NCBI GenBank assembly: GCA_003023365.1
Contig: PXTG01000020.1
Location: 1-46,721, forward strand
Length of the DNA stretch: 46,721 bases
Reading direction: 5' to 3'
Source: Bacteroidetes bacterium QH_7_62_13
Lineage (GTDB): Bacteria; Bacteroidota; Rhodothermia; Rhodothermales; Salinibacteraceae
Part shown: in pieces, positions 8,047 through 46,721 of the stretch
Numbering within the stretch: position 1 is the first letter of the stretch
How the letters are laid out: each line of letters begins with the position of its first letter
Notes under the pieces: generated by a model
Told to the model about the DNA's origin: nothing
The model's database searches: none
The model's input: only the letters and a program-made list of their open reading frames with translations
Made by a program: the position numbers and the translations under genes

Positions 8047-9237
8047 CTACGAGGGGGGAAGGTCCGGCTTCGTGACGTCGGCCGTTTCCGCGCTCTCTTT
8101 GTCCTCGTCGGCAGGGGCCCCGTCGCCGGCGGGGGGCGCCTCCGCTTCGCCGTTGGCGATGGCCTCGTCTTCCTCGTCCCAGTTATCGATCGCCTCCAGG
8201 ACACGGTCCACAATCTGATCCTCGGGGATCGTGTCCACCACCTCACCGTGTTTGAAGAAGTGGGCACGTCCGCGCCCGAGCGAGACCCCGAGGTCGGCGC
8301 CGCTGGCCTCGCCCGGGCCGTTGACGGCACAGCCCATCAGGGCCACGTTCAGGTCCTTATCGAAGCTTTGCTCCGCGACTGCCGCTTCAACTTCCTCGAC
8401 GATGGAGAACAGATCTCCGACGAGCCGGCCACACGTGGGACACGCGATGATGTTGACGCCGGGCCGTCCGATGCCGAGCGAACTGAGGATGCGGTGGCCC
8501 ACCTTCACCTCCTCGACGGGATCGGCGGCGAGGGAGACCCGGATCGTGTCCCCGATGCCGTCGGCCAGCAGGGAGCCGATGCCGATCGAGCTCTTGACCG
8601 TCCCGGTATCGAGGGTGCCGCTCTCCGTTACGCCCAGGTGGAGGGGATACTCGGTCTCCTCGGCTACTTTCCGGTAGGCCTGGATCATCATGTACGGGTC
8701 GGAGTGCTTCACCGAGATGACGATGTCCTCGAAGTCGTTCTTGTGGCACACCTCCACGTGACGCATCGCGCTCTCAAAGAGGGCCTGCGGCTTCGGGTAG
8801 CCGTGCTTGTCGAGAATATCCTCTTCGAGCGACCCGGAGTTGACCCCGATGCGAATCGGAATGCCGGCGTCCTTCGCCGCCTGTAGCACTTCGCGCTCCC
8901 ATTCCGGCTTGCCGATGTTGCCGGGATTGATGCGGACCTTATGAATGCCCGCCTCGATCGCCTTCAACGCGTACTGGTAGTTGAAGTGGATATCGGCCAC
9001 GATGGGGACGGAGGCGCCCTGGACGATGTCGCCGAGGGCGTCGGCGTCCTCCGGGCGCGGGACCGCTACACGCACGATATCGGCACCGGCGTCCGCGAGG
9101 CGCTCGATTTCGTCGAGCGTCGTGTCCACCTCGTGGGTCTTGGTGGTCGTCATTGACTGCACCGAGATCGGGGCGTCCCCTCCAATCTGTACGTCACCGA
9201 CGTGAACGGGGCGCGTCTCGCGGCGGGGGCGTTCCAT
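8047..9237 (-). CDS. ispG: 4-hydroxy-3-methylbut-2-en-1-yl diphosphate synthase
   Basis: This is the [4Fe-4S] enzyme IspG (GcpE) of the non-mevalonate isoprenoid pathway, which converts methylerythritol cyclodiphosphate to HMBPP. The 396-residue protein has the TIM-barrel part first (APISVQSMTTTKT, DIVRVAVP, VADIHFNY, KVRINPGNIG, IRIGVNSGSL). The iron-sulfur ligands follow: CPTCGR near residues 266-269 and MGCAVNGPGE near 301. It is the compact form without the large central insert of plant and chlamydial enzymes. The last 40 or so residues form an acidic Ala/Glu/Asp tail, unusual for the family and consistent with a halophile. It appears monocistronic or precedes the CC-motif gene. Confidence 0.96.
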   Translation of the reverse strand: MERPRRETRPVHVGDVQIGGDAPISVQSMTTTKTHEVDTTLDEIERLADAGADIVRVAVPRPEDADALGDIVQGASVPIVADIHFNYQYALKAIEAGIHKVRINPGNIGKPEWEREVLQAAKDAGIPIRIGVNSGSLEEDILDKHGYPKPQALFESAMRHVEVCHKNDFEDIVISVKHSDPYMMIQAYRKVAEETEYPLHLGVTESGTLDTGTVKSSIGIGSLLADGIGDTIRVSLAADPVEEVKVGHRILSSLGIGRPGVNIIACPTCGRLVGDLFSIVEEVEAAVAEQSFDKDLNVALMGCAVNGPGEASGADLGVSLGRGRAHFFKHGEVVDTIPEDQIVDRVLEAIDNWDEEDEAIANGEAEAPPAGDGAPADEDKESAETADVTKPDLPPS

Positions 9238-43337: not shown

Positions 43338-43848
43338 AGCAAAAATTATTTTCGAGAAAACGGTGCTCGCGAATTGGGGCTTCAGATTGATGGTGGCCAG
43401 GAGGGAGATCCACCTGTTTTTGCAAATCGAGGAGTCCGATGTTTAAAAATGTTAGATCCGGAAAGGGGAAGGAATGTGGGGATCCCCGGAGAAAAGATTT
43501 CCGGGTCGGGACGCCCGGTGCCGGTCCGTTGAGGGGACCACGGCGTTCGACCATCGAGGACGGTCGCCAATCATCAGTGACCCGGTCGAGGTCATAGCGC
43601 GTCTAGTCGCTTGCGCGACAGTTCCCTGGGCGAATCGATCCCCCCGATCTTCGTGGTGTGCGTTCCATTGTCCGTTCCCTCAGATCCGATCCAATTGCAG
43701 CGAACTCCGATGGAATTCGACGCCCCTGACTCTTGAGAATCGGGCGCCTCCTTGCGTTTCTTGCTGGACCTACCAATGGGGTCAAGAATCGCACCAGGCG
43801 AGGAGGATCCCCCGCGCCGTTTCTTGAATCAAAGAGTCAGTTGTACCT
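43338..43848. other. 511-bp divergent intergenic region
   Basis: No convincing gene is seen; open frames on both strands lack protein-like sequence. It should hold the promoter of the lipoprotein operon (minus; AT-rich patch near 43340-43450) and that of the pyrophosphatase gene (plus). Confidence 0.45.
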
Positions 43849-44259
43849 GTGCCCGACCTACAGTCCGTCCGCTCCGTCGTGGAGGATCACTTTCGCTGGG
43901 AGAGCTGGGCCCGACTTGTCGAGCGGCACGGCGTGACCATCGATCGGCCGTTCGGGGCCGCCCATCCGGACTATCCGTCTGTCGTGTATCCGATCGACTA
44001 TGGGTATTTGCCGGGCACGATTGGGACGGATGCCGAGCCGGTCGACGCGTTCGCAGGGACCGGGACACAAGGCCTGGTGGGGCTTATCCTCACGGCCGAC
44101 CGTCGACGGGGCGACCGCGAAGTGAAGCTGTTGGTCGACTGCACGCCGCCGGAGATCTATACGGCCCACGGGTTCATCAACTACGATCGAACGCTTCTCG
44201 GGGGCGTACTGGTGCTGCGGCACCCCATGCCGGTGCTGTGGAAGCGACGCGACGGGTAG
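43849..44259 (+). CDS. short inorganic pyrophosphatase-like protein
   Basis: The 136-residue protein starts at a GTG. It has the family I pyrophosphatase core: HPDYPSVVYPIDYGYLPGTI and the metal signature DAEPVDAF, where the classical form is DGDPLDV; the middle Asp is Glu here. Later come REVKLLVDCTPPEI and YTAHGFINYDRTL. It is about 40 residues shorter than E. coli Ppa (176) and lacks part of the C-terminus. It may hydrolyse pyrophosphate or a related diphosphate. It is the last gene before the tRNA-Lys fragment, 98 bp away. Confidence 0.8.
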   Translation: MPDLQSVRSVVEDHFRWESWARLVERHGVTIDRPFGAAHPDYPSVVYPIDYGYLPGTIGTDAEPVDAFAGTGTQGLVGLILTADRRRGDREVKLLVDCTPPEIYTAHGFINYDRTLLGGVLVLRHPMPVLWKRRDG

Positions 44260-44357
44260 GCGGGACTGGACTCACAGACACTTCAAGCCCGGATCCCCGC
44301 GCACCCCGAACAGACACGGGCCCGGGGCATACACACTTGTGCGAAAATAAAAGCACT

Positions 44358-44396
44358 GGCCCCGTAGCTCAGCCTGGCAGAGCAACGGACTTTTAA
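44358..44396 (+). tRNA. tRNA-Lys(TTT), 5' part only; interrupted after the anticodon loop
   Basis: The acceptor strand GGCCCCG, then TA, the D arm GCTC-AGCCTGGCA-GAGC, the base 26 A, the anticodon stem ACGGA and the loop CTTTTAA (anticodon TTT) are all intact. After position 44396 the sequence no longer matches: no variable loop, T arm or CGGGGCC acceptor partner is found in the rest of the window. TCCGT, which would close the anticodon stem, appears 22 nt later (44419-44423) after an inserted 8-bp hairpin, but what follows is the 165-bp repeat. This is a truncated or interrupted gene, most simply an insertion at the anticodon loop. Confidence 0.8.
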
Positions 44397-44414
44397 ACAG
44401 CGCACAGCGCTGTT
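44396..44414. repeat. hairpin at the tRNA break point
   Basis: AACAGCGC-aca-GCGCTGTT has perfect 8-bp arms and a 3-nt loop and starts at the last base of the anticodon loop. It may be the end of the inserted element or its recombination site. Confidence 0.6.
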
Positions 44415-44419
44415 CAACT

Positions 44420-44584
44420 CCGTTCAACACGTTCTGAGGGGAATTTTTCACTTCTCTTCCCCTTCTGCGGTAGTAAATCTCGGCTCCTTGACTACCGTCC
44501 CGAGTAGAAGTCCAACTCCCCTGTTTCAGCACCTGCTGAGAGACGTGTATCTTGACGTTTCCGTGGCGTCTCATTTCTTCTTGG
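44420..44584 (+). repeat. structured repeat, copy A (about 165 bp)
   Basis: Copy A aligns with copy B (46120-46285) over its whole length, sharing CGTTCTGAGGGG, CACTTCTC, GCGGTAGTAAA, CTACC, TGTTTC, CACCT, TCTTGA and TTCTTCT in the same order. It folds into three stems. AGGGGAA/TTCCCCT is 44437-44443 with 44457-44463. GCGGTAGT/ACTACCGT is 44467-44474 with 44491-44498. GAGACGT pairs with ACGTTTC (44540-44546, 44555-44561) or with CGTCTC (44567-44572). In copy A the loop CTCGG (44479-44483) can pair with CCGAG (44500-44504), forming a pseudoknot. It lies 150 bp before the PIN-like gene. Confidence 0.75.
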
Positions 44585-44737
44585 TCTCGAAGCAGTTGTA
44601 GTCCCTGGATTTACCCCTTCTGTTTACCATCGCTCCCCTGGTTCTTGCGCCTCGGTGTGGGTGGTCTTTATCTTGCTCGCAGCGCTGCTTTCCCCTATCC
44701 TCTGAGGTAGGCACTCATCAAGAGCAGAGGCACCGCA

Positions 44738-46090
44738 ATGCGTGAGCAGTTCCCTTGGTTTCTCGACCCGACGGAGGAAGAACTACAACAGCTGTGGGAG
44801 GAAGCCACCTTCGGCTTTGACGCCAATGTTCTTCTGAATCTATATCGGGTTGATAGGGAAACGACGGAGGACTACTTCAAGATTTTCCGTGCTCTTGGAG
44901 ACCGCATCTTCCTTCCGCACGAGGCAGCGCACCAGTTTTTCCTGAACAGGAGAGGAGTAATCCAAACCGAGCAACGCTCCTTCTCTGAGGCAAAGAAACG
45001 AGTTCGGGACTGGGTAGAGCGGCGCAAGGGTTTTGACAACCTGAAACACCAGCTCCGTGGTGGTGACGGAGATGACAGCATCGGGGAAATAATAGAAGAT
45101 GAGATAAAGGACGAAATAGAAAATGTGTTTGACGGGAGTGAGGATTATGAGCAAGCCATAGAAGCGGTGAAAGACGCTCTCATAGAGCGTATAGAGGACT
45201 TGGACGAGCGATTTACGCCCACAGGGACGACCCGAGCAAATACGGAGAAGGACGAAATCCTGAAGGAGTTGATTGACATTTTTGAGGGAAATACGGGCAG
45301 AGAGCTCGACGAAGATATGGAAGAGTTGAAGGACCAGGCGCTGGAAAGATATGAAAATGAGAAGCCACCTGGCTACGAAGACTACGAGGGAGGGGACATA
45401 AGCAGAGGCGAGTGTGAGGATTTCCTCATCTGGAAGCAGCTAATGGAGTTTGCTGAGCGAGAAAGTGAGGACGTGGTTTTCATCACTGGTGAAGAGAAGC
45501 CGGACTGGTGGGAAGTGAATGACGACCATAACATCATTCGCCCGAGGCACGAGCTTCTCCGTGAGTTTAGAAGAGAGAGTGGTCAGTTCTTTTGGATGCT
45601 AACCACCGAGGATATGCTTGAAAATGCCTACGAGCTGTTGGGAGTAGAGGTGAGAGACAAATCTGTTGAGCAAACAGACAAAGTCTCTCAGAAAGGCATT
45701 ACTTCTAAAACTGTTCTAAGACGAGGTGAAGAGGAAAAGCAGGTCGGCACGGTGCGTAAAACCTCGTTGATAGTAATAGCAGAAAATATTGAGGAGAAAG
45801 CAGAAGAACTATCAGACATAAAGACTCTTGGTGCTGGTGGTGCCGTAAAGGGAGCACAAGCCACGTTGTCCATAGTGGGAGACGAGATTACGAACGAAGT
45901 AGAAAAGGCGCTCACCCTCTCCGACAACTTGGGAAGCCCAAATACGGAAAACACTATCAAGGAGCATCTCCGACAGCTTGCCCACGCTACTGCGAGGGGA
46001 AACGAGGAGGCTATCGTATCTTACGCAGCAGGCTTGGCTGAGTATTTGAGGGATGTAGCTGAGACTCTTCGGCAAGAAGCCCAGGCTTAG
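44738..46090 (+). CDS. PIN-like-domain (PIN_8-type) protein, probable defence or toxin nuclease
   Basis: The 450-residue protein has FGFDANVLLNLYRVDRETTE near the N-terminus (acidic D28), then IFLPHEAAHQFFLNRRGVI (Glu 62). A long charged coiled region follows (about 75-205), and GGDISRGECEDFLIWKQLME and DVVFITGEEKPDWW supply the later acidic residues. This is the arrangement of PIN_8/DUF4935-type nuclease domains, which often occur in defence islands. The C-terminal 150 residues are helical and unrecognised. The codons ATA, AGA and AGG and a lower GC content set it apart from the rest of the window. It is flanked by copies A and B of the structured repeat. The nuclease fold is likely; the defence role is inference. 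Confidence 0.8.
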   Translation: MREQFPWFLDPTEEELQQLWEEATFGFDANVLLNLYRVDRETTEDYFKIFRALGDRIFLPHEAAHQFFLNRRGVIQTEQRSFSEAKKRVRDWVERRKGFDNLKHQLRGGDGDDSIGEIIEDEIKDEIENVFDGSEDYEQAIEAVKDALIERIEDLDERFTPTGTTRANTEKDEILKELIDIFEGNTGRELDEDMEELKDQALERYENEKPPGYEDYEGGDISRGECEDFLIWKQLMEFAERESEDVVFITGEEKPDWWEVNDDHNIIRPRHELLREFRRESGQFFWMLTTEDMLENAYELLGVEVRDKSVEQTDKVSQKGITSKTVLRRGEEEKQVGTVRKTSLIVIAENIEEKAEELSDIKTLGAGGAVKGAQATLSIVGDEITNEVEKALTLSDNLGSPNTENTIKEHLRQLAHATARGNEEAIVSYAAGLAEYLRDVAETLRQEAQA

Positions 46091-46119
46091 AAGTTGATAA
46101 TCCAGAATACTGAAAACCG

Positions 46120-46285
46120 CCGTTCTAAGCGTTCTGAGGGGGTCTTTCCACTTCTCTCCCTCCAGCGGTAGTAAAACTCAGCTTCGGTCTGCTACCACTC
46201 AGCAGGCGGGAGCTTTCTGTGTTTCTGTCACCTCTTTGGAAGCTCCTTGTCTTGATGCTTCCATGGCTTCTCTCTTTCTTCTCTT
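46120..46285 (+). repeat. structured repeat, copy B (about 166 bp)
   Basis: Copy B is diverged but clearly related to copy A. It keeps the same three stems with changed bases: GAGGG/CCCTC (46136-46140, 46158-46162), GGTAG/CTACC (46167-46171, 46192-46196), and GGAAGC with GCTTCC (46238-46243, 46257-46262) or GAAGC/GCTTC (to 46270). The third stem has changed on both sides relative to copy A, a sign of selection for structure. It starts 30 bp after the PIN-like gene stop and ends 36 bp before the next gene. Confidence 0.75.
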
Positions 46286-46321
46286 CTACCTCCTTCAATC
46301 TGAAAAAATGCGGTGGAAGCT

Positions 46322-46721
46322 ATGGGAGTGACTGTGTTCGACAACGGAGATGAGCCTTACCACGAGTGGTTGAAGAGCCACCCAGAGGGATACGTCCTGA
46401 ACACGAGACGCAGCCCCGAAACGACCTATGTGATCTTCCATCGTTCTACCTGCTCTGACGTCTCCCGAATCAAAACGGGAGAGGCGGGCGGATTCACGGA
46501 GCGCAAGTATATCAAGGTTTGTGCTGAGGAAACCGAGCCGCTCGTGGAGTGGATACTGGAAAACCGCCCGAAAGCAGCGGCGGAGTGGATGCGTGACGCC
46601 CCACCGAGTGAAAAGCCCGACGCCAGACCGTGCGGGACGTGTCAGCCTGACGTTGAGATTGAGGGCGTCAGCTTGCATAAACACCCAGAGAGCTTGCATA
46701 AACACCCAGAGGAGGAAACTG
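46322..46721 (+). CDS. start of a gene of the same accessory unit; N-terminal Cys-containing module
   Basis: An open frame runs from ATG 46322 off the right edge (133 codons seen). It reads MGVTVFDNGDEPYHEWLKSH, then GYVLNTRRSPETTYVIFHRS and SRIKTGEAGGFTERKYIKVC, and later PCGTCQPDVEIEG. I recall similar N-terminal modules (VTVFDN..Y..W...P.G.VLN, HR..C, YIKVC, PCG.C) in varied restriction- or defence-like proteins; this is recollection, not a search. The start may also be GTG 46328. It uses AT-richer codons than the core genes. The visible end holds a 7-residue duplication (SLHKHPE twice). The full domain layout is unknown. Confidence 0.7.
   Translation, partial: MGVTVFDNGDEPYHEWLKSHPEGYVLNTRRSPETTYVIFHRSTCSDVSRIKTGEAGGFTERKYIKVCAEETEPLVEWILENRPKAAAEWMRDAPPSEKPDARPCGTCQPDVEIEGVSLHKHPESLHKHPEEET
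46670..46711 (+). repeat. 21-bp perfect tandem duplication inside the last gene
   Basis: A 21-bp unit (begins AGCTTGCATAAACACCCAGA) occurs at 46670-46690 and 46691-46711. It encodes SLHKHPE twice, in frame. The tract continues to the right edge, so more copies may exist outside the window. Confidence 0.9.

Follow-up and report, generated by a model that had tools for sequence, protein, structure and literature searches.

Repeats resembling attachment arms beside cargo genes at a split tRNA-Lys gene of Bacteroidetes bacterium QH_7_62_13

We analysed contig PXTG01000020.1 (C20, 46,721 bp, hereafter the window) of assembly GCA_003023365.1 from Bacteroidetes bacterium QH_7_62_13 (G000; 2.07 Mb, 118 contigs, 62% complete); the right edge of the window is the edge of the contig. 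The right end of the window probably belongs to a small integrative element with a tyrosine integrase, inserted in tRNA-Lys(TTT), and represents its distal end, where two copies of a repeat, A and B, would be attachment arms and the internal copies would have been accreted, as judged from comparison with related genomes. We observed both junctions of the insertion, the empty site, the start of an integrase gene, the copies of the repeat and the remnants of the tRNA core at repeat A, at repeat D of Bacteroidetes bacterium QS_3_64_15 (G011) and at a relic in Salinivenus lutea DBO (G001, family Salinibacteraceae). The element is an ordinary kind of mobile island, and its unusual part is the attachment arm repeated between cargo genes, an arrangement that we did not meet in the open-access literature searched, as far as the texts were available.

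Insertion junctions in tRNA-Lys and the empty site

The initial annotation of the window had proposed a tRNA-Lys(TTT) cut after its anticodon loop and had regarded it as the target of an insertion. The cut gene was confirmed by comparison with tRNA-Lys of genome G009 (Table 1), and no complete tRNA was detected by ARAGORN in the whole window. The alignment of the window with G009 starts at 44265 and stops at 44396, directly after the anticodon-loop letters ACTTTTAA. The crossover would have occurred at some point of the core (44386..44400), whose centre is 27 nt upstream of the conserved block of repeat A. A pyrophosphatase-like gene precedes the cut tRNA in the window and the intact tRNA-Lys in G009, where the pyrophosphatase gene, tRNA-Lys and tRNA-Leu are found together without insert, providing the comparison with an intact site that had been called for. 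The initial annotation had also noted AT-richer codons; the right end of the window is AT-richer, with a GC content of 0.514 compared to a minimum of 0.575 in 169 host windows of equal size, all of them higher.

The window contains no tyrosine recombinase, in agreement with the initial annotation, which had recommended a search for such a gene and for the missing 3' half of the tRNA. The start of such a gene and a completed tRNA were located on contig C37 of the same genome (locus L004), on which the tRNA half was refound by searching G000 with the repeat region. On the minus strand, C37:6-98 encodes the N-terminus of a tyrosine integrase, 81% identical to the G011 integrase over 31 amino acids, and after this integrase start come a pair of GGTMGTAAA motifs at a distance of 22 bp, a complete tRNA-Lys (442-517) and tRNA-Leu(GAG). 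Because G009 exhibits the uninterrupted gene order, C20 and C37 were read as the two junctions of one insert, and we infer that they are the two ends of one element with an unassembled gap between them. A split tRNA, a restored gene and a displaced fragment at the far end, which characterize an integrative element, are all present in G000, again with the intervening gap unassembled.

The tRNA region of C37 (341-480) was then compared with 11 sequences. The displaced copy of the window showed the lowest identity (67% of 128 columns) and the copies of G002 (85%) and G005 (82%) were the closest, and therefore the element probably brought this tRNA 5' end from elsewhere, as the local alignment suggests.

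Copies of the repeat, GGTMGTAAA motif and anticodon-arm cores

The initial annotation had described a 165-bp structured repeat in two copies and had considered that these might be unrelated chance matches. The copies are real: A and B are 80% identical over about 64 bp, and over 172 letters of the query B and a G011 copy are 82% identical (E 8e-39). Further copies, a search for which had also been recommended, were found as C and D in G011 and as diverged traces in G001. The length and structure were only partly sustained, with a block common to the four good copies (A-D) of about 70 bp, the remaining 110 bp or so being alike mainly between B and C. In a 72-column alignment of the block, A is 72-76% identical to B, C and D, whereas B is 87% identical to D and 84% to C, both from G011, and 72% to its neighbour A. 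Outside the block, B and C are 75% identical and the other pairs 37-52%. As B is closer to the copies of another species than to A, local duplication fails to explain the copies. The terminal copies A and C sit 20-23 nt from the insertion junctions.

The motif GGTAGTAAA, a putative arm-type site of the integrase, is present in all four good copies. In five related element ends, two copies of its degenerate form GGTMGTAAA, 22 bp apart, precede the integrase start. Compared to the expectation from shuffled sequences, it was found 4 times vs 0.14 in the G011 locus (L035), 3 times vs 0.18 in the G001 locus (L046) and 3 times vs 0.26 in the window, where one of the three matches lies in host DNA. 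The stretches taken as element (22,668 bp) contained 11 GGTMGTAAA and 9 GGTAGTAAA, and the host stretches (166,252 bp) 5 and 1, respectively. This distribution would fit a sequence that binds the integrase.

The best match to the anticodon-arm core within the 60 nt upstream of the block is 27 (A), 30 (B), 27 (C) and 28 (D) nt away, so placing the core centre 76, 77, 76 and 78 bp, respectively, from the motif; the distance is 66 bp in the G001 relic. At A the core is the tRNA itself. The null probability is 0.0003 for D and 0.10 for C, and 0.02 for B, a value weaker than it looks as the test was framed after A and D had been seen. D keeps 15 nt of tRNA-Arg(TCT). When tested against 66 tRNA sequences, D scored 15, above all 300 random 80-mers, and the G001 relic (L046:2658-2739), which combines a tRNA-Arg-like core (13/15) with GGTAGTAAA, scored 13, a value that 3 of 300 random stretches reached; the null windows of the tRNA and core tests were drawn from the same sequences, true sites included. 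No tRNA remnant above the null median was detected upstream of B and C in this tRNA-wide test. The core-like sequence at B is inverted and overlaps the stop of cargo gene 1, and about 2% of random places match equally well. A second core at the end of the repeat, suggested by the G001 boundary at the tail of B, was also considered, the best matches of 8-9/15 not being above chance.

Table 1 Features at the right end of the window
Feature	Position	Strand	Basis
Host gene, inorganic-pyrophosphatase-like, left flank of insertion site	43849..44259	+	PF00719, 23.6 bits (cut-off 23.5)
5' half of the host tRNA-Lys(TTT), displaced and ending within the anticodon loop, on the host side of the distal junction	44358..44396	+	38/39 nt identical to G009 tRNA-Lys
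Core with the crossover region: anticodon-arm letters CGGACTTTTAA continued by element sequence	44386..44400	+	13/15 to tRNA-Lys anticodon arm
Repeat A, putative distal attachment arm	44420..44600	+	Conserved block ~44420-44490; weaker similarity to ~44600
GGTAGTAAA, putative integrase arm-type site in repeat A	44469..44477	+	
Cargo gene 1, PIN_8-domain protein, 450 aa	44738..46090	+	PF18476, E 3.1e-43
Inverted core-like sequence containing ACTTCTAA, overlapping the stop of cargo gene 1	46083..46097	-	10/15 to tRNA-Arg(TCT) anticodon arm
Repeat B, putative internal copy of the distal attachment arm	46120..46315	+	Conserved block ~46120-46187; tail 46272-46315
GGTAGTAAA, putative integrase arm-type site in repeat B	46167..46175	+	
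Cargo gene 2, incomplete at contig end	46313..46721	+	Open reading frame list

Related elements, distribution and cargo

A complete element of about 7 kb is present in G011, with 245-bp end duplications (90%) and its integrase. It is inserted in the 3' part of a protein gene, glyoxalase-like by our reading of the protein; this target was also considered as a look-alike of the tRNA core and discarded, a match of 9/15 being chance on sequence alone. The genes of the element code for the integrase (Phage_integrase, PF00589, E 9e-19), a methyltransferase-like protein, an AbiJ_NTD4 protein that matches PDC-S32 (PADLOC, E 1e-92) and a protein without Pfam family. Repeat C marks the end of the element, repeat D precedes the AbiJ gene, and each has the same strand as the genes after it. 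A second pair of repeats, 79-81% identical, was noticed at L035:8155-8263 and 8520-8631, after the integrase gene and a small open reading frame (L035:8283-8495). The 70-aa product of the latter has a 59% identical relative beside a broken integrase in L047 (genome G003), and could be an excision or regulatory factor.

The G001 element is also complete, with about 13 kb and a 161-bp end duplication (99.4%) starting in the anticodon loop of tRNA-Lys. It exhibits an integrase 76% identical and one gene matching Type IIG restriction models (PADLOC). In addition to the relic, a diverged block of the repeat is found at L046:1792-1824, with 15.8 bits compared to 5.8 in the best of 40 shuffles; a possible further copy seen by eye at L046:660-735 was not reported by the profile search and was not counted. 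Both ends of this element carry only the 3' half of tRNA-Lys(TTT) (L046:12860-12910 and, in locus L055 of the same genome, L055:19600-19660). No tRNA-Lys(TTT) anticodon arm was found in G001 (99% complete) by a pattern search allowing one mismatch; the genome holds tRNA-Lys(CTT) and a partial tRNA-like copy at C2:54076-54137. The tRNA may have been lost, may have diverged or may lie in an assembly gap.

The integrases of G011 and G001 showed general Phage_integrase (PF00589) and SAM-like N-domain matches in Pfam, the only collection run, and the integrase of G000 is assembled as N-terminus only. In the alignment of three integrases, the residues R205, H309-x-x-R312 and Y344, which we take to be the catalytic residues of a tyrosine recombinase, are invariant. 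Beside tRNA-Lys of G004, only an integrase remnant is left: at L060:158-680 an intact tRNA-Lys is followed by the integrase-side end and only the first integrase codons. This element is decayed or deleted. At L047:8627-11089 in G003, a broken integrase of the same family and a second one (37%) stand back to back on either side of a tRNA-Leu 3' half, the identity of the tRNA being our own reading of the sequence. This arrangement again points to accretion at the anticodon loops of tRNAs.

The repeat or its traces were found in 3 of 13 genomes of the genus (G000, G011, G001). A DNA search of 244 genomes of the class gave matches in five, two of them outside the genus with only 25-26 bp. A 19-letter pattern of the block, with at most two mismatches, matched 6 of 395 genomes drawn from the phylum, among which G011 was not seen; two of the six belong to the genus (G000 and G001), and the four others are at chance level because the reversed pattern, used as control, gave 13 matches. 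The short match in G079, from another family, located between two genes (L116:9822-9850), was set aside, its frequency not being above this control. No convincing copy was thus obtained from outside the genus. A GTDB scan gave relatives of the integrase at three loci, and a search of the 244 class genomes at E 1e-25 gave them in five, with an identity of 30-31% in two of these; two IMG/VR scans gave none. The end of the window had no DNA match in a phage collection, nor the end of the G011 element in a plasmid collection.

The gene between the two repeats, announced as PIN-like, indeed codes for a PIN_8 protein, and the gene announced after B was recovered as an open reading frame running off the contig. 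Cargo gene 2 has no Pfam family above the cut-off, and neither gene has a PADLOC match at E 0.01. An exact in-frame tandem duplication of 21 bp (SLHKHPE twice) was observed in cargo gene 2 at 46670-46711, beside the contig end. The initial annotation had held that the same genes at other loci without the repeat, in strains with an intact tRNA-Lys, would speak against cassettes. The PIN gene itself is absent from the rest of the 244 class genomes; relatives at most 37% identical (the best in G009) occur in seven of them, with no convincing copy of the repeat in the 3.4-4.0 kb around each. This argues neither for nor against the mobility of the PIN gene.

Alternative explanations, known systems and implications

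We propose that the integrase would recombine the element into the anticodon loop of tRNA-Lys(TTT), whereby the host 5' half of the tRNA would be displaced, giving the broken tRNA of the window, and the 5' half captured by the element would restore the gene on C37. Insertion in the anticodon arm might take place in either orientation, as the G000 element carries a 5' half and the G001 element a 3' half. The repeat would be the distal attachment arm, a conserved block with the arm-type site GGTAGTAAA at 76-78 bp from the core centre, and the internal copies (B, D of G011 and the G001 relic) would be additional arms whose core remnants are recognisable to varying degrees. Elements of the same family, or fragments of them, would accrete at attachment sites and lose their integrase genes, each cargo staying with its own arm, so that cargo genes would become separated by attachment arms and the element would grow unit by unit. 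The internal copies were most likely left by such accretion of other elements of the family.

Several observations weigh against this explanation. The distal end of the G001 element (G001:C3:112647-112690) matches only the tail of B (91% over 44 bp), without the conserved block; either an element end can do without the arm as defined, or G001 has lost it there. The core remnant of B is weak and inverted, that of C is no better than chance on sequence alone, and no core is present where it would be expected for the L046:1792 copy. The distance from the core to the integrase-side motifs varies from about 250 to 480 bp between elements, which is unusual for a compact attachment site. The GGTMGTAAA counts are overstated and are no independent evidence of function, because the motif was picked from the repeats. 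When the 89 nt upstream of the C37 tRNA were aligned globally, the window copy scored 0.81 and four relatives 0.76-0.82. This alignment does not separate the copies, and the local one is what supports a foreign origin of the captured tRNA end. Finally, the C37 integrase lacks the ATG common to four relatives (6-bp alignment gap, L004:90-115), and therefore the G000 element may make no integrase of its own, or one that starts elsewhere.

Whether the repeats were recombination sites or leader RNAs had been left open by the initial annotation, and the evidence favours arms of a recombination site. Promoter or leader (5' UTR, untranslated region) sequences shared by the cargo genes and controlling them would account for the position of the four good copies, each upstream of the next cargo gene on the same strand, and for the fold of A, which is better than that of shuffled sequences (z -3.2). 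B folds no better than its shuffles (z -1.3), none of the 11 predicted pairs of the consensus fold showed a two-sided change in the only four sequences available, and no Rfam family reached the gathering score in 43800-46721. Moreover, the motif is also found at the integrase-side end, the terminal copies abut the insertion junction and D has a tRNA remnant at the same spacing. We rejected a leader RNA as main explanation on the lack of a compensatory pair and of an Rfam match, and common control sequences seem to us distinctly unlikely; the repeats may have a dual role, as arm and as leader or promoter. A chimeric contig end could also be suspected in a metagenome bin as incomplete as G000, 62% complete in 118 contigs, with the contig ending within the feature. 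The same repeat and order, with an integrase, are found in the separate assembly of G011, and a matching second junction is present on C37, which makes such an artefact highly improbable.

The initial annotation had further likened the alternation of genes and repeats to a modular cassette array. There is support for a modular array within limits, as the pattern recurs in another, complete element and has left diverged traces in a third one; this support does not extend to the movement of single-gene cassettes. True cassettes moved one by one by a phage-type integrase, in the manner of an integron, would agree with this recurrence, with the similarity of the repeats being independent of their neighbourhood and with similar repeats preceding different cargo. 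However, no cassette recurred in two different elements, B and C have weak core sites, the repeat is known from three elements only, and the same data are explained by accretion followed by loss; we regard these cassettes as unlikely. In integrons, genes are arrayed with recombination-related repeats between them, and attC is at the 3' end of the cassette. The array described here is alike in having recombination-related repeats between genes, and differs in that they are 5' of the genes and at the very end of the element, and in a recombinase that is phage-type by Pfam. Neither a 3' site nor a folded-strand structure as in attC was found, the fold showing no covariation and no attC-model search having been made. 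It is quite unlikely that a phage-type integrase family of halophilic Rhodothermota assembles defence and other cargo singly, each gene with its own arm and a core of tRNA-anticodon type, so that the integrase could move it alone, in or out, in trans and the genes would form an integron-free cassette array.

Accretion at attachment (att) sites has been recognised in cis-mobilizable elements (CIMEs), where tandem accretion of integrative and conjugative or integrative and mobilizable elements leaves integrase-less units bounded by att sites. The proposed accretion is similar in this respect; the units here are single genes, and no relaxase, conjugation or mobilization gene is among the Pfam families of the eight scanned proteins of G011 and G001, their other open reading frames being unscanned and the G000 element mostly unassembled. 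In Dehalococcoides, islands stand in tandem at a single RNA gene, ssrA, with direct-repeat remnants between them and an additional conserved motif next to the repeat; 16 of 31 keep the integration module, according to the available part of the source (PMC3146451). These share with the model proposed for our elements tandem units separated by att remnants; they use a serine recombinase, a tmRNA target, a 20-bp direct repeat and a 15-bp motif, and that part of the text does not mention an arm block of 70 bp preceding single genes (PMC3146451). The closeness to PAISt of Streptomyces turgidiscabies would lie in internal attachment sites, putative in our elements, of a tyrosine-recombinase island: as far as the accessible text describes it, PAISt has one internal and two flanking attachment sites, is excised whole or in modules, uses a palindrome of 8 bp within bacA and forms a circle of 674 kb on excision (PMC4057263). 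The elements described here differ from that account by their size (about 7 kb in G011 and 13 kb in G001), by a tRNA target in two of the three repeat-bearing elements and by the repeated unit, a long arm sequence placed before single cargo genes. In the related host Salinibacter ruber, genomic islands of horizontal gene transfer likewise have tRNAs, repeats and recombinases at their flanks; the text as available describes no attachment-arm repeat and does not use the term 'direct repeat' (PMC6060240).

A gene and repeat pattern at the edge of a contig in this way yields a model, open to testing, of cargo acquisition by small islands. The arms between the genes would record past accretion, and tRNA remnants inside an island hint at the origin of its earlier units. 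If the arms still work, one integrase could swap single defence genes.

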